Shown here in pieces: positions 5,575 to 33,445 of a DNA stretch of 37,451 bases. The stretch spans positions 1-37,451 of the IMG/VR virus record IMGVR_UViG_3300043409_001538; one strand, 5' to 3'. How positions within the stretch are numbered: position 1 is the stretch's first letter; every line of letters begins with the position of its first letter. Both the position numbers and the translations under genes were made by a program. The notes below the pieces were generated by a model that did no database searches, was not told the DNA's origin, and worked only from the letters and a program-made list of their open reading frames with translations. The stretch comes from a virus.

Positions 5575-6282
5575 ATGTTAACTATTTCCCAAGTCGCCGC
5601 CATGAGAACCTCTGAGCTGGTCGCTTTTTACAATCACCACTCGATCAAGCCTGTCTCGAAATTCCAAGACCGCGCTACCGCCGAGCGCCGCGTCCTTGAG
5701 TTGGTCGCCTCGCTCCCTAGCGACGCTGACTATGCCGCTACGCCTAGCCTCGCCTCGATGGTCGCGCCTAACCCGCTCGCGATCCGCCCTGAAGCGGAGC
5801 GTGTCGCTGTTAAATCTAAGCTCTACACCTCCAACGCCGCGCCTCGTACAGCTGAAACTCCTTTCCCAGTCGCCCCCGAAGGCGCGGGCGAGTTGGCTTG
5901 CCCTAGCTGCGGCGCTACGCACGACCAAACGTATGCTGGCGAGGAAGGCACTGCGGCGGGCGAGCGGATGTTCTGCCATCACTGCTCGACCGAGTACCAC
6001 ACCGACGGCAAAATCTACAAACGCCCAGTTGCTAGCATTTCCCGCTCCGCCGCGATCGCTGCCTCTTGGGCTAACCCTGAAGTTGCGGCGGCTCGCGCCA
6101 CCCGCGTCGAGGTTGTTGTCGAGGGCATGGGCGCGTTCAAGTCTGTCCCAGCCGCCTTCCGCGCCCTTAACCTCCCGATGGGTCGTATGATCCCCTTCCG
6201 GCTTGTTATAAAGGCTCAAGGCGAGGCGACGTTCACCATGGGTGACCGAGAGTATTTCTTCCACTCCCGCGAAGCCGTATAA
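5575..6282 (+). CDS. Conserved phage protein with zinc ribbon
   Basis: A 235-residue protein of a type I recognise from many phage early regions, without an assigned function. It has three parts. The N-terminal segment contains SELVAFYNHHS and a conserved FQDRATAERRVLEL helix. The middle is a zinc ribbon with CPSC near residue 111 and CHHC near residue 139. The C-terminal domain includes FKSVPAAFRALNLP and ends in a beta-rich stretch. The last domain resembles small phage domains that follow or replace the N-terminal helix elsewhere. It has its own promoter-like region with an operator-like palindrome and the conserved leader, and a terminator follows, so it may be a separately regulated single-gene unit. 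Confidence 0.8.
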   Translation: MLTISQVAAMRTSELVAFYNHHSIKPVSKFQDRATAERRVLELVASLPSDADYAATPSLASMVAPNPLAIRPEAERVAVKSKLYTSNAAPRTAETPFPVAPEGAGELACPSCGATHDQTYAGEEGTAAGERMFCHHCSTEYHTDGKIYKRPVASISRSAAIAASWANPEVAAARATRVEVVVEGMGAFKSVPAAFRALNLPMGRMIPFRLVIKAQGEATFTMGDREYFFHSREAV

Positions 6283-6290
6283 GCCCACCG

Positions 6291-6309
6291 CGCCCTTCGG
6301 GGCGTTTTT
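6291..6309 (+). terminator. Rho-independent terminator after the zinc-ribbon gene
   Basis: CGCCC-TTCG-GGGCG (6291-6304), a 5-bp stem closed by a stable TTCG tetraloop, is followed by five T residues. It begins 9 bases after the stop codon. Confidence 0.75.
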
Positions 6310-6329
6310 CGCTTTAGGACTCCAAAAAA

Positions 6330-6500
6330 ATGCGCACTGTGTACAATACTGGCAAGGTCAAGATTGGCCTCACCTACACCCCGCCCCTTCGGCACCTTTC
6401 CGCCGAGGAGCGCCTCCTCCAGCGAGCGCTCCTCGGCGATCGCGTAACCCTGACTGAAGTTTTTGTCCGTTTACTTTCCCCAAGGAGAAAATTCAAATGA
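6330..6500 (+). CDS. Small conserved phage protein, 56 residues
   Basis: A short gene between the terminator and the next coupled chain. It begins MRTVYNTGKVKIGLTYTPP and ends SPRRKFK. The start is preceded by TTTAGGACTCCAAAAAA, with AGGA at a workable distance. Its stop overlaps the next start as ATGA, which strongly supports translation. The NTGKVKIG...TPP opening resembles short proteins I have seen in other phage early regions; their function is unknown. It is the first gene in a run of four coupled small genes leading into the FAD oxidoreductase. Confidence 0.7.
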   Translation: MRTVYNTGKVKIGLTYTPPLRHLSAEERLLQRALLGDRVTLTEVFVRLLSPRRKFK

Positions 6501-24800: not shown

Positions 24801-25786
24801 GCGGCATTTTTTCGCGCATTGAGCACCTTCTCAGTAAACGCCTCGATGTCCTCGCGAGCCTTCGCCGCGTCGATCTTCATCTGCGCACCAATTGCCGAGA
24901 AGGCGGAGAAATCTAGCGTCGCCAACGCCCCAATCTGCCTAGCAATGCCCTCGATTTCAAGATAGGTCTGTTTTAACACATACACCGTATTCGCCACGAC
25001 GACGATCACAGCCTCAAACGCTATCGCAATCCCATCCACAATAATGCTAAGGTTGCCTCCCGTTCGCTGAGACTCCGCGAATTCATCTGCTAGCACCTGA
25101 AGGATTGGTAGCAATCCCTCGGCGAGTTGCATAGTAGCGCCCTTCGCAGCCAACGCCACCTCAGCGAGCTTGTCATTAAAGTCGTCTGCCGCTTTGACTA
25201 GCTCTGGGCTAACCTTAGAGAGCGCAGCGCCCTTATCGACCATCTGCTGAATTCTCTCTCCGCCCTCCGCAAGCAAAGGCGCGGCAGATTGCCAACTCTT
25301 CCCGAGCGCCTCCGCCGCGAATGCCGCCCGCAGCTGTGGGTCTTCGATCTTAACGAACATGTCCGAGAGTTGCTTGAAAGCCTCGAGTGGATCTTTGGCG
25401 GTAACGCCGATCAACTTAAATTTTTCAGCGTCCTGCCCCATCTGGACAGACAACTTATTTATCGACTGCGCTATGCCGTCGAGATCGCCGCCGGACTGCT
25501 TCGCGGCAAGCTCCAAGCCCGCGAGATTCTCAACTGTGATTCCAGTCGCCTTGTTAAGATCATTGAGCTTATCGGCGGCATTGATTGCGCCAGTGACTAA
25601 CGTCGCAAACGCGCCAATCGAAAGCCCTACGCCAAGAGTTGCTAATGCGCTCTGAGCGGAGGAAACGCTTTTCTGTATTGACGACATAGCGCCATCTACT
25701 GTTTTGCGTGCAGAGGCCATGTCCTTTTCTAGCCGGACAAGGTTTGCTGCCATCTCGATTGTTAGCGTGCCAACGTTGGTGCTCAT
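21884..25786 (-). CDS. Tail tape measure protein
   Basis: A 1,300-residue protein, by far the longest gene of the window. It opens with helical, coiled-coil repeats (LVRLEKDMASARKTVDGAM), has Ala/Gly-rich hydrophobic stretches around residues 530-700, long helical regions after 880 and a glycine linker near 1,170. Near the C-terminus comes a DUF4214-like motif INGLYQEILGRSAEQGG. Position after the chaperone pair and before the tail tip is diagnostic. Tape measure length sets tail length; at about 1.5 angstrom per residue it predicts a tail near 195 nm. The DUF4214-type motif is unusual enough in tape measures to be noted. Confidence 0.9.
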   Translation of the reverse strand: MSTNVGTLTIEMAANLVRLEKDMASARKTVDGAMSSIQKSVSSAQSALATLGVGLSIGAFATLVTGAINAADKLNDLNKATGITVENLAGLELAAKQSGGDLDGIAQSINKLSVQMGQDAEKFKLIGVTAKDPLEAFKQLSDMFVKIEDPQLRAAFAAEALGKSWQSAAPLLAEGGERIQQMVDKGAALSKVSPELVKAADDFNDKLAEVALAAKGATMQLAEGLLPILQVLADEFAESQRTGGNLSIIVDGIAIAFEAVIVVVANTVYVLKQTYLEIEGIARQIGALATLDFSAFSAIGAQMKIDAAKAREDIEAFTEKVLNARKNAAELKELQRQTALVTDPQAAARAAAAAAAAAVAKKDAEAFLNYKKQEAGAYDKVIEKADQLVAAIKFETEALTMSNVEKETSIALQKLLSLGIKEGTEEWKKYSEAVIYATIEKEQMTKLVNDRKKIDEKAIADRLKAEEKYADEVKQINNQIGQSLTDALMEGGVNAKDFLIKMFKTMILRPMLQPIITGLVGGFTSAGMAGGAAAADASGGGTVGGTMGLMGMASTLKSAYQMVTGGFAALGTTVTQFVAETAGSMISGAAVGSATEAAGVALAQSATAIGSAASALAGVGAGLMLGNLISDGKGIGGTDPMIATGVGTAIGFAVGGPLGAAIGGVVGGLANAAFGTGKKVIDDTGLKITFNSMATTVKQYEDWSKKGGFISGGSKGTELKDVDANVQKYIDVSVGAVALSIKQYTDILQLPARDLTQYTQEVQRSLEGLSPEDAKKAIDESVKAYANGLATFAAGEIAAYQRDGEQFVDTLARLGSSLKVANDTLGILNIALYDTSASGADAASRLAEAFGGMDKFVAATDAYYQNFYSAQERATETTENLGKVFDQLGLQMPSTNAQFRSLVEAARAAGDDTLFANLIKLAPAFSNLKNSLASLVDAAYQDLQTAIAAEQKDALDRIQKQKVIAQAQAEVARENVDALSSIFDYLTSQIDELTGSVTAAKSAAEGAAFIQTAIETARLTGYLPDQAELEGAVSAVRAEMDSANYASAYEQKLAQMRLAAQLTDLRLVAEEQKTTAELQLEVALQQVEEFTLQAEMTNAYYEQQLIYAQTQINELRNVNSSTLTVASAMSALGAAIDAARMQGSSGGGGGGGGSSAPDSGRSGQINGLYQEILGRSAEQGGLDAWNNSGLSIDQIREGIQNSPEARGFALGGYYSGGLAMVGEDGPEMINFSNPGMVYTAAQTAALLGGSGGSEVVQELRSLRDDNKVQARSIAALNLRMTRVFERWDGDGLPETRVETV

Positions 25787-26274
25787 TTGCGCCTTGCCTG
25801 AATTAGAGCTTTGAAGGTGTTACTGATTTTACTTCCAACAACGTCGCGATCAAATTCCTTCACCACCTCACCATAAGGCGGAGGACACTCCTCTTTTTCG
25901 CTTTCTCGAGACTGAGACAGATACGCCCTTGACATTTCCCGAATCGCAGTAAACTCCCATGGCGACAATTCTATCGCTAACCCCTCCCGCCAAGCCGCGA
26001 TCTCCGCCGCCAATAAAACCACCCCACCCATCGCTCCCGCGCTAACTAGCCCGAGGTCTTGCCAATAGCCAACTAAGTACGCCGCCTCTCCAACCTCCGG
26101 CATTAAGGGTGTACCGCCGTTTCTTTCGATCTTCTGCCCTCTAGTCAGGGTTTGCTCCGAATCGCTTGCCTTGGCTGTTTTAACACCTTTAAATGCTGGC
26201 GTAGAATGGAACCACGCCAGCTGCCGTGCGTACAGGATTAAATCGTGGAGGGCGTTTTGGTAAAATTTGACCAA
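25783..26274 (-). CDS. Tail assembly chaperone, frameshift-encoded T part
   Basis: A 163-residue-length frame between the first chaperone and the tape measure. It contains YLVGYWQDLGLVSAGAMGG and IELSPWEFTAIREMSRAYL, typical of the second chaperone segment. The first possible start is a TTG at 26274 with no convincing ribosome-binding site, and the frame overlaps the upstream gene by 37 bases in the -1 register. The overlap contains the slippery heptamer A-AAT-TTT at 26268-26262. I infer that it is made mainly as a 289-residue fusion by -1 frameshifting, like lambda G-T. Its stop overlaps the tape measure start by 4 bases. Confidence 0.85.
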   Translation of the reverse strand: MVKFYQNALHDLILYARQLAWFHSTPAFKGVKTAKASDSEQTLTRGQKIERNGGTPLMPEVGEAAYLVGYWQDLGLVSAGAMGGVVLLAAEIAAWREGLAIELSPWEFTAIREMSRAYLSQSRESEKEECPPPYGEVVKEFDRDVVGSKISNTFKALIQARRK

Positions 26275-26651
26275 TCGCTAATTGCTTTGTTCACTTGCTC
26301 GGAAATAAACCCAATTGAGGTGTCCATGTAAGCCGCGCGGAACATCTCAATGCCGGAGAGGTCTTTGTAAACAAAGTTGTTGAACGAGACGGTACAGGCG
26401 GCAAGAAAATCCGCATCCATCTCGCGCTGCTCTTCGTCTTTAACTTTCTTGCCGCCCTTTCGGACATACTCAAGAAGGGCGCGGTTGCGGGTTGATTGGG
26501 CTTTCTGAAATTGTTTTGAGCCTGGGCCATAAACAGTAATCGAGATCGCCTCTCCATCCTCTCCCTTCAGTGAATCTCCGTCTGGGCTTTCTAGCTTAAC
26601 AATTGAGGTGGGGTTTACCGCAAGGTTTGAAATATCAAATGTTTTGTTCAT
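26238..26651 (-). CDS. Tail assembly chaperone, G part
   Basis: A 137-residue protein immediately downstream of the major tail protein. It starts MNKTFDISNLAVNP, contains VKLESPDGDSLKGEDG and helices with KAQSTRNRALLEYVRKGGKK, and ends in ISDWSNFTKTPSTI, whose codons hold the slippery heptamer. The gene order, size and overlap with the next frame fit the shorter chaperone that coats the tape measure before tail tube polymerisation. The ATG at 26651 is preferred over an upstream start in the same frame, since AAGGATG precedes it. Confidence 0.8.
   Translation of the reverse strand: MNKTFDISNLAVNPTSIVKLESPDGDSLKGEDGEAISITVYGPGSKQFQKAQSTRNRALLEYVRKGGKKVKDEEQREMDADFLAACTVSFNNFVYKDLSGIEMFRAAYMDTSIGFISEQVNKAISDWSNFTKTPSTI
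26262..26268 (-). promoter_or_regulatory. -1 ribosomal frameshift slippery site AAATTTT
   Basis: In the first chaperone frame the codons read TCA AAT TTT ACC, giving an X-XXY-YYZ heptamer A-AAT-TTT. Slipping back one base changes the pairing to AAA TTT and continues as TAC CAA AAC, precisely the frame of the downstream chaperone part. The heptamer is 7 codons before the zero-frame stop. Confidence 0.8.
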
Positions 26652-26694
26652 AATTTGAACATCCTTTTCGCTGGGGATAAATAAAGTGCCCGTG

Positions 26695-26737
26695 CTACTC
26701 GCGCCCAGCCCCAGCGAAGGAGCGGCGGCGCGAGTAG
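26695..26737. promoter_or_regulatory. 11-bp perfect hairpin between tail tube and chaperone genes
   Basis: CTACTCGCGCC (26695-26705) pairs perfectly with GGCGCGAGTAG (26727-26737) across a 21-base loop. It lies in the 114-base gap between the tail tube stop and the chaperone start. There is no long T-run, although CACTTTATTT follows in the leftward direction. It could trim transcription from the abundant tail tube message, protect its 3' end, or control chaperone translation. Confidence 0.7.
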
Positions 26738-26765
26738 TCGGTGCTTGGTACGTCTTTCGGGTCAA

Positions 26766-28285: not shown

Positions 28286-28619
28286 CAGCTGAACCCTCCA
28301 CACAGTCAAAGGTAATCGCTTTGTTGCCCTCTTCGATGTTTATTGAGGCTGTGATATTAAAGATGCGAGACCCAAACACGATTCGCCAAGCGTCCACAGT
28401 CTTCGGAGGTAAAAGAGCCGCGCTATAGCGCACGCTTACTGTATGGCTTAAATCCGAACCAATCGCAAATGCGCGGAGTTTTTCCCGCCCACCTATCGGG
28501 CGAACGTAAGCCCAGACCTCGGCAACCTCGATCCAGCTGTCGATCTCCTGCCCATAGGCATCTTTCGTCGCGGAGCGGCGCTGAATCGTTACACGCTGGT
28601 TCATTTGCCCAATTCGCAT
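28275..28619 (-). CDS. Head-tail joining/adaptor protein (SPP1 gp16-like)
   Basis: A 114-residue protein of the head-closure adaptor type. It starts MRIGQMNQRVTIQRRS, then has EVAEVWAYVRPIGGREKLRA, and a strand SHTVSVRYSAALLPPK. The opening QRVTIQ and the central WA.VRP.gG are hallmarks of the family (SPP1 gp16, HK97 gp9 and related). It closes the portal-connector channel after DNA packaging. TAATG overlap with the upstream connector gene. Confidence 0.9.
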   Translation of the reverse strand: MRIGQMNQRVTIQRRSATKDAYGQEIDSWIEVAEVWAYVRPIGGREKLRAFAIGSDLSHTVSVRYSAALLPPKTVDAWRIVFGSRIFNITASINIEEGNKAITFDCVEGSADGQ

Positions 28620-29233
28620 TACATCCCCATCTTAATTCGGTATGGCGTCATAAGGTGAATCGCTCCGAGCGGGAGCGTAACGACTTGGTTTGCGTATGCG
28701 ACCGCCTCGCGGTTTTCATACAAATGCCCGAGCATTAAAAGCATTGCCGCGCGGATAGCCTTTGGGAGCGGATAGGGGTTGGGGGAGTCGCCATCAGTAT
28801 GCCCCGCCGAAAAAGTAACAATCACGGAGTTTGGCGTGGAGGCGGTTTGAGGCCAAGTTTCCTTGGGGAAAAGTCTCGCGGGCTTTTCGTAATTATCCAA
28901 AATATATTTGGAGTAAGAAAGGGTTTGCGGGATGCCGTTGACGTCGGTATAAACCACGCTAACGACTCCCGTAACAGGCCATATTCCGAGCGCCAGCGCT
29001 TGGTCGTCAAACCCGTCATAGGCGGCGGAGTAAGTCTGCTGGACGACTGCTGTGCTCATGTAATTCTCCGCATCCTCCCGAACCGCCGTGATAAGAGAAT
29101 CGATAAGTGCGTCGTCGGGATGGCTTGGGGGCGAGCCTAAGGCATCGAGCCGGAGGTGAAGCCGAGCCTCCTCGAGCGAAATTAGCTCGAGCGACACATC
29201 ATTTTGAGGCAATATTGACTTTGGCTTCTTCAT
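28619..29233 (-). CDS. Head-tail connector, HK97 gp6-like
   Basis: A 204-residue protein similar to the gp6/SPP1 gp15 connector group. The family-like opening LISLEEARLHLRLD is followed by DDALIDSLITAVREDAENYM. A middle strand part (GIWPVTGVVSVVYTDVNG) and the helix KAIRAAMLLMLGHLYENREA come next. This helix is a common landmark in these proteins. The ATG at 29233 follows CTGAAAGGGAATGGA. It forms a ring beneath the portal. Confidence 0.9.
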   Translation of the reverse strand: MKKPKSILPQNDVSLELISLEEARLHLRLDALGSPPSHPDDALIDSLITAVREDAENYMSTAVVQQTYSAAYDGFDDQALALGIWPVTGVVSVVYTDVNGIPQTLSYSKYILDNYEKPARLFPKETWPQTASTPNSVIVTFSAGHTDGDSPNPYPLPKAIRAAMLLMLGHLYENREAVAYANQVVTLPLGAIHLMTPYRIKMGM

Positions 29234-29307
29234 TCCATTCCCTTTCAGCCACTGCACTTGTTAAAACATGTTAGGCGCTTAAATCTCGCTGGGTTGGTAC
29301 TTACCTA

Positions 29308-29901
29308 TCACTTAACCCTTTCAAACGCCAGCCACGTGTCTTTTACGTGTTGAATTTTAGCCCCTGCCGCGCATAAGTCATTTAGCGTTTGCGTTACCTC
29401 GACGACAGGCAAGCAATTATCATCGTGAAAGATGATTATGCCCCCAGATTTGATGATCTGCTTGGCGAGCGCATAATCGTTTTCTACTCCGAGGCGGGAG
29501 TGATCTGCGTCGATGAAAATGGCGTCTGCCTTCGGGAGGTCTTCGGCGGTTAGCTCGAACGTGCCGCGAGCGCGGACGATTACGCTGAACCTTGGATCTC
29601 CGAGCGCCAACTCCCCCGCGATCTGCGGCACTTCGGAGCGCTGAACGCGCATAATGGTTCTGTAATCGTGGCCAACGTCTACCCCAACATAACTCTCGAT
29701 GCCCTCGATGTTTCGGAGCGCCGCGACCGCGTTGCGCCCCGTATTGACGCCAAACTCAATAATGGTTTTCGGCTTTACTGATTCAAACAAACAAAGGAGC
29801 GCCTCTAGCTCCCCCTCGTTGAAATACCTTTTGGGCAGCCCGCTCGTATCGTACTCACGCGGTTTAAGTGCAATGGATTTGCGTTGTCTAATCAGTTCCA
29901 T
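29308..29901 (-). CDS. SAM-dependent methyltransferase in the head gene cluster
   Basis: A 197-residue class I methyltransferase of the Methyltransf_24 type. The SAM loop is IIEFGVNTGRNAVAAL near residue 47, the strand-2 acid is in YVGVDVGHDYR and the strand-4 region reads ADAIFIDADHS, followed by SGGIIIFHDD, which resembles O-methyltransferases and cephalosporin-hydroxylase-like enzymes. It overlaps the upstream glycosyltransferase-like gene by 14 bases, so both are coexpressed. It likely modifies a sugar or surface product rather than DNA. Confidence 0.8.
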   Translation of the reverse strand: MELIRQRKSIALKPREYDTSGLPKRYFNEGELEALLCLFESVKPKTIIEFGVNTGRNAVAALRNIEGIESYVGVDVGHDYRTIMRVQRSEVPQIAGELALGDPRFSVIVRARGTFELTAEDLPKADAIFIDADHSRLGVENDYALAKQIIKSGGIIIFHDDNCLPVVEVTQTLNDLCAAGAKIQHVKDTWLAFERVK

Positions 29902-31387
29902 TTATAAAGCTCCGAAGGCGTGGGAGGTAAGCCTCAATGTTAATCGTTTTATTGCAAGAATGCGCTTTGGAAAAGCACTCGCATGGCTCGTTTGGCTCGA
30001 TAAAAAAATCTGTCTTTGCGCCGTGAGAATAAAAGCGGGCGGACTCGTGACCGCCAAAAACCGCAACGACTCGAGCGCCCACTGCTTGGGCAAGGATAAG
30101 CGCAAACCCCGCCGAGCAAAACACCGCTCCGCTCATACGCATCAGCGCGGTAATTATCTCCACGCCTAGCTCGCCAGCGTGATACTCTACATCCGCCTCG
30201 ATCTCCTCGCTCACAATCCATTCGACTTGTGGCTCTAGGTCAGCAATAGACACGACAAAAAAATTTTTTCTTATCGAGCGTAGCAACTCGCCGTAAGCCC
30301 TTGGGTCAGGATTCCGCGCCGCGCATCCCGCCCACTCTACCCGCTCGACGAGAGGTCGATAAATCAAAATTGGCTTAGTCGTGCGCCAACTAGCAATAAG
30401 TCGCGCAGCCTCCTCAAGCCATTCAAATTTAATTGTGAGGGAAAATTCCGTTTTAGGCAACCCCGCCTCCGCGCACATCGCGCCGAGAAATGATCCTGTT
30501 TTCCGAACCTGATCCTGAGAGTACCAAATCCGAACCTCTCGCGAAAAGGATTGTGGGCGAGATGGGCTGTATTGAGAAAATTCTCGTTTAGAGTTTTTGC
30601 GTTGGGTTCTGAGGTTGGTTTCGCTCGGGAGGAGGCGAAGACCTTGGGAGGCGAGATCATGGTAGACGGATGGCCAAGGAGTTTTAAGCCAAACCTCGAA
30701 ATTCGCCATAAACTGCCGGACAACGGAGCGCTGGTGGAGGTTATCGCCTAGCCCTTGCATCCCTAAAACGAGTAGTGTGGGCTTTGCGCGTGGGCGCTCG
30801 GATAGGCTCGCCGCCGCGACCTCGATGGGGGCGCGATCGAAACATGTGAGCGCGGTTTCGCGGCTAGAATTTATAACACGAACACCGTCGCGGGCAAGGT
30901 CTTTCGCGAGGGCGGGAAAACGGGCTTGCCATAAGTCAAATGGTTGACGGTTTGTTAACCCATTTTTATGCTGGCCAAACCAATGTGCTTCCTTTCCAAG
31001 CGGTTGCGAGCAATCGAACCCAAGCAATACGATCGTCTTCGCGCCCCATAGGTATGCGAGATTGACCGCTTGGTATCCGCTATTGCCCCCTTGATGGATC
31101 GCGCCGTAGCGCCCCAACCCAGGCTTGTTCTCGCTACTGATTCGATTTAATCCGTATTTTTTTGCCGCGCCTTCGTCTTGCGTCCAGCGCTCGCCTTTGA
31201 AATCGGCTTTGACTCGCTCGGAGTGGACTCGCCACCAGTCTCCGTCGCAAGCATAGACGACCTCAGCGAAGGGCGCTCGGCGGTAGCTGTCGTTGACAGC
31301 GATGGTGCGCCATCCTTGTCGCTCGACAACAGCGCAATCGGCTTCGGTAAGGCTTGGTCCACTGGCGATAATTGCGACAACTCGCCC
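29888..31387 (-). CDS. Two-domain glycosyltransferase-like protein with N-terminus in a start-less frame
   Basis: The first conventional start is a TTG at 31117, but the frame is open upstream to 31567 and clearly codes for protein there. It gives RWWGRVVAIIASGPSLTE, then TIAVNDSYRRAPFAEVVYAC, DGDWW, FKGERWTQD and NKPGLG before HQGGNSGYQAVNLAYLWGAK. That is a full N-terminal domain of the DUF115/sialyltransferase-like phage family, found up to about residue 200. The rest resembles a GT9-type glycosyltransferase: LLVLGMQGLGDNLHQ and later CSAGFALILAQAVGARVVAV. No ATG, GTG or TTG lies upstream in frame. The upstream part overlaps the next gene in another frame. A frameshift from that gene, a -1 slip or a missing base in a G5 run at 31385-31389 would explain it. 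Confidence 0.75.
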   Translation of the reverse strand, partial: GRVVAIIASGPSLTEADCAVVERQGWRTIAVNDSYRRAPFAEVVYACDGDWWRVHSERVKADFKGERWTQDEGAAKKYGLNRISSENKPGLGRYGAIHQGGNSGYQAVNLAYLWGAKTIVLLGFDCSQPLGKEAHWFGQHKNGLTNRQPFDLWQARFPALAKDLARDGVRVINSSRETALTCFDRAPIEVAAASLSERPRAKPTLLVLGMQGLGDNLHQRSVVRQFMANFEVWLKTPWPSVYHDLASQGLRLLPSETNLRTQRKNSKREFSQYSPSRPQSFSREVRIWYSQDQVRKTGSFLGAMCAEAGLPKTEFSLTIKFEWLEEAARLIASWRTTKPILIYRPLVERVEWAGCAARNPDPRAYGELLRSIRKNFFVVSIADLEPQVEWIVSEEIEADVEYHAGELGVEIITALMRMSGAVFCSAGFALILAQAVGARVVAVFGGHESARFYSHGAKTDFFIEPNEPCECFSKAHSCNKTINIEAYLPRLRSFINGTD

Positions 31388-31584
31388 CCACCACCGCCCA
31401 GCGCTTCGGTCGATTGGGTTTCTTTGGCGGTTGTCGGCTTGGGGTTTACGGGCGCGACCAAGCCGAGCATTTCCATTTCCTCCGCGAGCTGAATCGGGAG
31501 GCGGAGGCGTTGCTTGCGGGAAACCGCTCCGATGCGCGTATCCGAAAAGTGCGCAAGCGAAATTACATCAACAACTTCTGTCAT
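31147..31584 (-). CDS. Small head-region protein with overprinted C-terminal extension
   Basis: A 145-residue frame. The first 50 residues (MTEVVDVISLAHFSDTRIGA, then RLRLPIQLAEEMEMLGL) resemble short proteins found between capsid and connector genes of HK97-like phages. The rest is low-complexity, rich in Ser, Thr, Pro and Lys, and is read across the same DNA that codes in another frame for the glycosyltransferase N-terminus. I judge the first part real. The tail from about residue 66 (GGG at 31389-31387) is doubtful: it may be an overprinted extension or an artefact of a frameshift. The start overlaps the upstream stop as ATGA, with GGGAAGAAAGACC before it. Confidence 0.65.
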   Translation of the reverse strand: MTEVVDVISLAHFSDTRIGAVSRKQRLRLPIQLAEEMEMLGLVAPVNPKPTTAKETQSTEALGGGGGELSQLSPVDQALPKPIALLSSDKDGAPSLSTTATAERPSLRSSMLATETGGESTPSESKPISKASAGRKTKARQKNTD

Positions 31585-32198
31585 GGTCTTTCTTCCCATC
31601 GTGTTCTGAAGATTCCGGTAGCCGTAGCACCGTCAGTATTTTGCATTGAAATGTAAAATGTACTAGGTGCAAATCCTTGCGGGCTTGCATCGGTAATATG
31701 CTCACCACTTGCTTTGTTTGCGTTTGCGCCAGAATAAAGTTTATACAAGTCAACAACTGTGCCGCCAGCATGTGCGCCGCCTGTTTGCATGGTAACCTGC
31801 GGGGTATAGCCTGACGCGGTTGTCATAGAGTTTGCAGCAATAATTGGCAAGTTTGTTGCCCAAGCGCCTGATGCTGTGCCGCCTACTCGCAGCTCTACGC
31901 GCAGCTCTGCCAATTCAAGCTCAAATTGCAGCATTTGAACGATCGTATTGATTGGGGAAATTACGCGAATAACCCTAGTTGTTTCTGTCGGTATGCTGTA
32001 CTCGTAAAATGTACGAAACTCGCGTCCTGCAAAGAATCCCGTTTGCCCTACGTCCACACGGATGCGAGAGTATTCTCCATCGTCGTCGGTCATTAATTTG
32101 GCTGGTGGATACGCCTCCACCCGCTCGGCATGCCGTCCGCCGCCGATGTCGGTGAATTGGCGAAATGCATTTTGCGGAGCTTCAAAAACAATATCCAT
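31581..32198 (-). CDS. Head decoration-type virion protein
   Basis: A 205-residue protein of a family I recognise from HK97-like phages, immediately downstream of the major capsid protein. Conserved-looking blocks are ERVEAYPPAKLMTDDDGEYS, RIRVDVGQTGFFAGREFRTF, VIRVISPINTIVQMLQFELE and LRVELRVGGTASGAW, ending in a TRWEERP motif. It is all-beta in appearance and follows the capsid gene after a terminator-like hairpin. A decoration or capsid-associated role is likely; its exact function is not established. Confidence 0.8.
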   Translation of the reverse strand: MDIVFEAPQNAFRQFTDIGGGRHAERVEAYPPAKLMTDDDGEYSRIRVDVGQTGFFAGREFRTFYEYSIPTETTRVIRVISPINTIVQMLQFELELAELRVELRVGGTASGAWATNLPIIAANSMTTASGYTPQVTMQTGGAHAGGTVVDLYKLYSGANANKASGEHITDASPQGFAPSTFYISMQNTDGATATGIFRTRWEERP

Positions 32199-32248: not shown

Positions 32249-33445
32249 TTACAGCGAGCCAGCGATAAAGCTTGCTGGGCGGAACACTGTCAGAGCAAGG
32301 CGCTCTTCAGCCAACAACGTGGCCATGTTCTTTTTGAAGTTGTCGCCGTCTTCGTAGCTGATCTGGACAGCCGCGTCCATACGATCCCAGATAGACGCGC
32401 CCATTATGAACGCGCCCGACAGGAACGTGCCCTGTGCGATCGAGTTCGTAACGACAACGCGGCGACCCCACAAGCGTGGGCCAAGGGCGTTGATTGGCCC
32501 CATGTCGTCAGCGAAGATGTACTCGCCAGTCGTGGTCTTCAGCAACTCGATGGCTTCCCAATCCTCTGGGTTTAACACAAACGCGTCAATCGGGTACTCG
32601 GCCAAAGCGGCTTGAGTAATCGACTTGCGCAGTGTGTCGAGAGCGGTGTCGCCTGTAGCGGTGCGGTTGTACGCAACGTGGTTGCCAGCCTTCAAGATGC
32701 CGCCGATATTGCCGGAAGCACCTGTGCCGTTTAACAACTGATCTTCCTCTTCGAGCTTCAAGCCGTAAGTCAAACGGCCATTCACATAGCTTTGCAGCTG
32801 AGGAGCGTCGTCCAGCACCTGACGCGAGACGGGAATAAAGTGAGCCAACGTCACAACTGGGGCATTCTCCAGCGTGAAGGTGATTCCTGATTCCGGCTTG
32901 GTGACGTTTTCGCGAGCCGGAGAGGCATACTGTGGCCCAGCGTTGTTTGTGAAGACGTTTTCGCGAGTAAACTGGATCAGGTTGCTGGTTGTGCGACCGA
33001 TAGGCAACATATCACGAATCGTCAAGACGCGGTTTGGATTCGCTACAATCCCTGGGACACGCATATCGCTAACGAGAGGCTGGTTTTGGCCAGCGGCATT
33101 AACAATAGCTGTTTTCAGTTCAATACGAGCGAATTTTGAGCGCCCAGCGACCATGGCTTGAAAAGCGTCTGATTTAATCAGCAAATCGCCTGCACTCTCG
33201 GCTTGTTTCTCGCGACCCTCTTCAGCGCCAGCCGCGAGTTTACGCTCCAACTCAATGCATTTTTCGCTCAAATCGGCGGCGGTGGTGCTTAGCTTTTCGA
33301 TCGCTGACCTGGTCTCGACTGACAACGCGGCATTGGCTTGGATCTCGCCATTCGCCTTCTCCATAAAGCTCTTCATCTCCCGAGTCGATTCGAGGAGTTT
33401 GCCTTGCGTTTCCGCCAAGCTTTTGATTTCTTGAATTTGGTCCAT
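32249..33445 (-). CDS. Major capsid protein, HK97 fold
   Basis: A 398-residue capsid protein. Residues 1 to about 100 are a helical scaffold-like delta domain (LAETQGKLLESTREMKSFM), removed in this family by the prohead protease; mature capsid begins around residue 105. The HK97-fold part shows LTIRDMLPIGRTTSNLIQ, then ENAPVVTLAHFIPVSRQVLDD, the RLTYGLKLEEEDQLLNGTG block and the P-domain FVLNPEDWEAIELLK. The ending ERLALTVFRPASFI is also characteristic. Adjacent to the prohead protease. Ribosome-binding site AAGGAAATACA. Confidence 0.95.
   Translation of the reverse strand: MDQIQEIKSLAETQGKLLESTREMKSFMEKANGEIQANAALSVETRSAIEKLSTTAADLSEKCIELERKLAAGAEEGREKQAESAGDLLIKSDAFQAMVAGRSKFARIELKTAIVNAAGQNQPLVSDMRVPGIVANPNRVLTIRDMLPIGRTTSNLIQFTRENVFTNNAGPQYASPARENVTKPESGITFTLENAPVVTLAHFIPVSRQVLDDAPQLQSYVNGRLTYGLKLEEEDQLLNGTGASGNIGGILKAGNHVAYNRTATGDTALDTLRKSITQAALAEYPIDAFVLNPEDWEAIELLKTTTGEYIFADDMGPINALGPRLWGRRVVVTNSIAQGTFLSGAFIMGASIWDRMDAAVQISYEDGDNFKKNMATLLAEERLALTVFRPASFIAGSL

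Follow-up and report, generated by a model that had tools for sequence, protein, structure and literature searches.

Programmed -1 ribosomal frameshifting as the likely route to a phage glycosyltransferase encoded without its own start codon

How can a complete enzyme be made from a reading frame that has no start codon? The question is raised by a locus on the minus strand of virus record IMGVR_UViG_3300043409_001538, which was analyzed over its whole length of 37,451 bases (the window; Table 1). The frame that ends at 29888 (stop codon 29888-29890) is open for 559 codons, back to 31567, where it is bounded by a TGA at 31568-31570. Its first ATG, GTG, or TTG is the TTG at 31117, with none between that codon and the TGA. 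The peptides AIIASGPSLTE, IAVNDSYRRAPFAEVVYAC, and GERWTQD are all encoded in this frame. The family phrog_4603, labeled "alpha-2;3-sialyltransferase," matches residues 67-253 of the open frame (E 9.8e-46), and the stretch before the TTG is thus part of a genuine domain. The same DNA is also open in the frame of a 145-aa open reading frame (ORF) running from an ATG at 31584 to a stop at 31147; a 150-aa version is possible from an ATG at 31599. A sequence-only reading of the window had described this layout accurately, including a run of five G residues at 31389-31385. It had left a choice among a -1 frameshift or an indel near that run joining the two genes into a fusion of roughly 565 residues, translation from a nonstandard codon, and real overprinting.

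Table 1. Features of the locus and its surroundings in the window
Feature	Position	Strand	Remark
Major capsid protein	32249-33445	-	Upstream in the same cluster; context
205-aa protein, phrog_13935	31581-32198	-	Between the capsid gene and the small ORF; context
Small upstream ORF (0 frame), 145 aa	31147-31584	-	N-terminal beta-rich domain of ~45 aa plus low-complexity basic tail overlapping the glycosyltransferase frame
Folded N-terminal domain of the small ORF, residues 1-45	31450-31584	-	Top Foldseek match is the lambda gpFI C-terminal domain (weak)
Proposed -1 slippery heptamer A_AAC_CCC	31441-31447	-	GTA AAC CCC in the small-ORF frame, codons 46-48
5' arm CGACAACCGCC of putative stimulatory hairpin	31426-31436	-	Begins 4 nt past the heptamer
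3' arm GGCG-A-GTTGTCG of putative hairpin, one bulged A	31375-31386	-	Includes part of the G5 run
Predicted -1 frame product after the slip, 517 codons plus stop	29888-31441	-	Two-domain glycosyltransferase without its own start codon
Glycosyltransferase domain 1, GPSL domain, phrog_4603	30791-31402	-	Predicted fold like Maf flagellin glycosyltransferase and CstII sialyltransferase
Glycosyltransferase domain 2, phrog_6804	29891-30790	-	Predicted fold like GT9 heptosyltransferases, including TibC
Dual-coding stretch	31147-31441	-	Small-ORF tail (0 frame) and glycosyltransferase start (-1 frame)
Methyltransferase, Methyltransf_24	29308-29901	-	Overlaps the glycosyltransferase end; gene order as in D3 orf12-orf13
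Head-tail adaptor	28619-29257	-	Downstream; context

Judged from comparison with relatives, programmed -1 ribosomal frameshifting very probably makes a 565-aa fusion of the small domain and the two-domain glycosyltransferase. Both the kind of event and the length suggested in the sequence-only reading stand, as 46 residues, N47 and P48, and 517 further codons give 565. The position does not: the site is placed at the A_AAC_CCC heptamer at 31447-31441, some 55 nt upstream of the G5 run. A slip at the run itself was considered and rejected. It offers no good two-tRNA re-pairing into the -1 frame, and the run belongs to the 3' arm of the downstream hairpin.

The comparison draws on 181 distinct loci with a placed GPSL motif, taken from viral and genome collections. 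Already in the first viral relatives examined, the enzyme frame lacks a start codon and the small ORF is always one base ahead; overall, a startless enzyme frame with an overlapping small ORF, always in the -1 relation, is found in 78 of the 181. This recurrence bears on the idea that the gene was split, in this single phage, by a mistake in sequencing or by an indel that inactivated it recently. The homopolymer run would fit that idea, but many loci that were sequenced independently share the layout, as do several named phage records; its presence in dozens of lineages rules out the indel, and the chance that an error accounts for the locus is vanishingly small. In a second class, comprising 63 loci, an ATG, GTG, or TTG lies near GPSL, and the other frame is closed within three codons in 40 of them, as opposed to 2 of 91 in the overlap class. 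On a tree of 134 enzymes with many weakly supported forks, the state changes between frameshift and start at least 13 times. The relatives are not independent samples, so counts obtained from shuffles are not probabilities.

The length of the overlap was tried as an argument and set aside. Given codon usage, the chance that the small-ORF frame stays open over the enzyme is about 0.02-0.7 per sequence (0.205 for the window), which is individually unremarkable, and openness is therefore not used as main evidence. A separate observation concerns the enzyme itself: its two domains form one polypeptide in the window (29888-31402) and are separate genes in D3 (orf7 and orf12), in PAJU2, and in most relatives.

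The slip site provides one line of evidence. In the window, the heptamer sits inside the overlap of the two ORFs, in the 0 frame. Among the 78 loci, a heptamer of the X_XXY_YYZ form occurs in the small-ORF frame in 69, compared with 14 and 15 in the two control frames; after 75% redundancy reduction, the figures are 42 of 54 against 9 and 11, and a canonical heptamer is absent from the other 12 of the 54 nonredundant loci with the overlap layout. The heptamer lies 29 codons before the G of GPSLT in the window and most of its clade, and exactly at -29 in 35 loci. Its position is conserved while its sequence varies among AAACCC, CCCAAA, CCCTTT, AAATTT, TTTTTT, AAAAAA, and GGGAAAG types, and other lineages carry CCCAAAC, CCCTTTA/C/G/T, AAATTTC, TTTTTTA/G, AAAAAAG, or GGGAAAG. 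The type changes at least 21 times on the enzyme tree, with the same weakly supported forks. The GGGAAAG found in one relative (L009) is the lambda G/GT heptamer. To our knowledge, AAACCCC is not among the strongest bacterial slip sites.

The codon before AAC ends in A whether the encoded residue is V, L, A, T, I, E, P, or Q in rows that were chosen for the presence of the heptamer; L110 (TCC AAC CCT), a row not so chosen, is an exception. Stops in the enzyme frame occur at 0.061 per codon just upstream of the heptamer and at 0 from the heptamer to GPSL, a zero that arises partly by selection of the loci. The nearest enzyme-frame stop is often only one or two codons upstream of the heptamer.

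The heptamer also marks a change in which frame carries the coding signal, as measured by codon-position variability in 23 collinear sequences. Before the heptamer, the third position of the small-ORF frame is the most variable (1.59 bits vs 1.25 and 1.02). Right after it, the third position of the enzyme frame takes the lead (1.30 vs 1.02 and 1.06), and nearer GPSL it leads more strongly (1.03 vs 0.49 and 0.35). The tail of the small ORF past the heptamer shows little constraint of its own. Overprinting, as proposed in the sequence-only reading, is retained only as a by-product, in which the small-ORF tail overlaps the enzyme start.

Such a switch would follow from translation of the enzyme frame onward from the heptamer, and not from a start at an odd codon beside GPSL. 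The alternative would have translation begin at a nonstandard codon such as ATC or ATT just upstream of GPSL and yield a stand-alone glycosyltransferase. A G-rich stretch (31390-31381) does precede ATT and ATC codons in the window, GenBank annotates D3 orf7 from an ATC after GPSL, and the 63 loci of the start-codon class have a normal ATG, GTG, or TTG in that place. Because the coding signature of the glycosyltransferase frame begins at the heptamer, before any such codon, a nonstandard start is disfavored; it would also leave the frame-specific heptamers, the covariation of the hairpin, and the in-frame fused homologs unexplained, and we regard it as improbable.

Downstream of the heptamer, a putative stimulatory hairpin starts after about 4-6 nt, formed by pairing of the two arms listed in Table 1. 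The stem is kept in relatives with other sequences (GGCAAC/GTTGCC and GGCGAC/GTCGCC; further arms are GACAGTTT/AAACTGTC, GGCAGTTGCTC/GAGCAACTGTC, and GACAGTTTGTC/GACAAACTGTC). Taken alone, the hairpin of the window does not exceed shuffled versions of its sequence in stability (z = -0.01), so comparative evidence, in the form of covariation, carries the case. The 5' arm changes register from one sequence to the next, which kept RNAalifold from finding a stem in the codon alignment; a duplex calculation with an arm-swap test was used in its place. With 25 nonredundant sequences, the summed duplex energy was -511.8 kcal/mol for each sequence's own arms and -408.5 kcal/mol (sd 13.7) for swapped arms, and 0 of 20,000 permutations reached the observed sum. 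A small table of 12 arm pairs was anchored by hand, with an artificial AAAA between the arms; 91.7% of its cells pair, compared with 20-51% in slid controls. Two-sided changes were seen in six of the seven tabulated pairs of the stem.

A hairpin that follows the site also speaks against transcriptional slippage, in which stuttering by RNA polymerase would yield the fusion. Homopolymer runs occur at the site in some relatives (T9 in L004 and A-runs in L024 and L114), as that explanation would have it, but the mixed heptamers of the window and most relatives (AAACCC, CCCAAA, and CCCTTT) suit two-tRNA slippage on the ribosome rather than stuttering. Polymerase stuttering is accordingly rated very improbable, below even the nonstandard start.

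The sequence-only reading had suggested searching related phages for a fused homolog, and the search was positive. Several relatives encode a similar small domain in frame with the same enzyme as one gene. A profile built from the small domains recognizes the fused N termini of L186 (1.5e-5), L097 (3.2e-5), L189 (0.0015), L099 (0.002), and L223 (0.029), where the E-values are for a nominal search of 1,000 sequences and reversed controls scored 97 or worse; it finds no convincing match in L134 (1.2), L203 (69), or L022 (110). In L097 and L099, the fused gene directly follows the major capsid gene. By comparison of sequences, these in-frame homologs independently support the fusion as a working protein, and as natural fusions they offer built-in controls.

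The predicted structures indicate what the fusion would join. The AlphaFold2 model of the enzyme is of high confidence, with a mean pLDDT of 88.7. Domain 1 resembles Maf (5mu5, Z 16.1 over 181 residues) and CstII (1ro8, Z 12.7 over 180 residues), and domain 2, which covers the match of phrog_6804 (a family of unknown function) to open-frame residues 265-543 (E 5.6e-40), resembles GT9 heptosyltransferases (3tov, Z 19.5; TibC, 4rb4, Z 19.1). The likeness lies in the predicted fold, while sequence identity to these structures is just 10-16%. The enzyme matches no Pfam GT42 or GT9 model, and on domain 1 the only Pfam hit is PF01973 MptE-like, below the cut-off (19.2 of 34.6 bits). Since the family sequence models are unmatched, these are described as fold resemblances and the domains are not filed as family members.

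The small ORF has a confident predicted fold over residues ~1-45 only. The C-terminal domain of lambda gpFI (2lsm) ranks first in Foldseek (E 0.015), with a VIA-align Z of 5.3 that is tied with unrelated folds. The small protein of the window matches nothing in Pfam or PHROGs, and a sequence search of solved structures gave a chance-level match only; DUF7302 (PF23976) is matched by 4 of 15 distant small ORFs (best 0.0026). The unshifted tails are basic, with 24% K+R and 6% D+E in the last 25 residues. An AT-hook-like [RK]GRP core is present in 32 of 92 tails from related sequences, against a shuffled mean of 0.5, and is absent from the tail of the window; such cores may reflect selection for DNA binding by the unshifted protein. 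They lie at differing places in different lineages (L060, L044, L114, and L015), even though the DNA also encodes the enzyme.

Under programmed frameshifting, ribosomes would start at the ATG at 31584, and the majority would read on to give the 145-aa small protein. Some, held up by the hairpin while AAC occupies the P site and CCC the A site (31446-31441), would move back by one base on A_AAC_CCC and go on in the -1 frame from the CAA at 31441. The predicted product is the 565-aa fusion, consisting of the small N-terminal domain, a short linker, and the two-domain glycosyltransferase, and its transframe peptide would contain ...LVAPVNPQADNR...; the unshifted protein would have the basic tail in place of the enzyme. 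The small domain may be a gpFI-like domain that binds in the capsid region, in which case the shift could keep the amount of enzyme low while the fusion holds it on the growing head, where it would glycosylate a virion protein.

Gene position, folds, and the fused homologs point to such tethering and virion glycosylation, to which we give slightly less than an even chance. The small ORF lies in the head cluster of the window, between the genes for the major capsid protein and the head-tail adaptor. In D3 and Psp6, too, the enzyme gene belongs to the head cluster; as in the window, L097, and L099, it follows the capsid gene either immediately or with one gene in between. The competing account accepts the frameshift and holds that the fusion is not head associated, the small domain serving only as a place to start translation and the enzyme acting on host surface sugars or on DNA. 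This is a substantial possibility, although clearly short of even. It gains from P1 pmgO and PAJU2, which encode the enzyme alone from its own ATG, and from the N-terminal domain of the window, which has no confident family match. It is opposed by the head-cluster position after the capsid gene in the window, D3, Psp6, L097, and L099, by the retention of the small domain in natural in-frame fusions, and by predicted folds that match protein-acting transferases. Maf and TibC both act on proteins. The record for PAJU2 ORF010, which labels it a structural protein, is a further point against it.

More broadly, many tailed phages, including the D3-like Pseudomonas phages, could use a conserved -1 shift to join a protein glycosyltransferase to a domain that binds the capsid, in a ratio that is low and fixed, and glycosylation of the heads would accompany their assembly; this generalization is plausible while falling somewhat short of an even chance. 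If the fusion rides on the head, it would offer a mechanism for virion glycosylation in which frameshift efficiency sets the copy number of the enzyme.

Several known systems share features with the locus. Phage proteins extended by a -1 frameshift include T3/T7 gene 10B, the head protein of Lactobacillus phage A2, and the major tail proteins of SPP1 and the 936 group (PMC5009743, PMC6669499). As proposed here, ribosomes slip late in a small gene of the structural region of a tailed phage, and part of the product gains a C-terminal module. In those cases, however, the modules are Ig-like or carbohydrate binding, whereas the window would add a complete two-domain glycosyltransferase to a small capsid-adjacent protein. 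The lambda G/GT system likewise has an X_XXY_YYZ -1 site that is fixed in position and changes in sequence, but it involves other genes; here, the site lies between the capsid and head-tail adaptor genes, the downstream module is enzymatic, and the hairpin covaries. FlmG, a modular flagellin glycosyltransferase of Caulobacter, reportedly joins a substrate-recruiting domain to a glycosyltransferase domain. It is an ordinary single-frame gene, whereas the joining here would need a frameshift and the recruitment is, presumably, to the head.

In lambda, the gpFI gene lies near the major capsid gene. Both gpFI and the small protein of the window are small and encoded close to that gene, with a weak fold match that is tied with unrelated folds. 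The basic tail of the unshifted product is a further point of likeness. Unlike the predicted fusion, gpFI carries no enzyme. The lambda protein is a head protein bound to the gpE lattice and a packaging helper (PMC4856287).

Frameshift-extended phage structural proteins are thus already known. The literature searched, which took in few subscription journals or preprints, reports no frameshift that adds a glycosyltransferase next to a capsid gene, as the window appears from its sequence to do. The GeneTack and PRFect papers, and the part searched of a 2016 recoding review, do not mention a glycosyltransferase frameshift. Mass spectrometry of a head cluster in another Pseudomonas prophage (PMC4936722) did not decide the matter. 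With this locus, conserved frameshifts in phage head genes become a candidate second family next to that of the tail chaperone G/GT, one that can be tested directly.

Cultured phages with the signal exist, namely Psp6 and the D3-like phages. D3, PMG1, phi1, U7, D14C, 5399, and phPA-G carry C_CCA_AAG 14 codons before GPSL. In the D3-like phages, position -22 of the enzyme frame is also occupied by a GTG or TTG, so initiation at that codon is possible in this group. The Pseudomonas putida phage Psp6 has T_TTT_TTG at -44 and Tetraselmis virus S20 has C_CCT_TTG at -22, both without a start codon. P1 pmgO and PAJU2 were considered as frameshift examples and rejected, both having normal ATG starts.

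Gene callers miss or truncate the N terminus of the enzyme. In the records of D3, PMG1, U7, 5399, and phi1, the enzyme is annotated in conflicting ways or omitted. The ATC-initiated annotation of D3 orf7 (L015) spans 5691-6409 of AF165214.2, and in phi1 (L279, KT887557.1) the small ORF and the enzyme are both unannotated. Citrobacter phage phiNP (L016, 3001-3606) and the P1 record MH445381.1 (L017, 3001-3503) contain the same glycosyltransferase domain with no or partial annotation.

Two further overlaps were seen in the window. A 67-aa ORF with an ATG start (31568-31771, minus strand) overlaps the 205-aa gene at 31581-32198 and is probably due to chance. After the major tail protein gene, two overlapping ORFs with TTG starts occupy 25783-26765 on the minus strand, with A_AAT_TTT in the first frame near 26270; this pair is probably a classical tail assembly chaperone (G/GT) frameshift.
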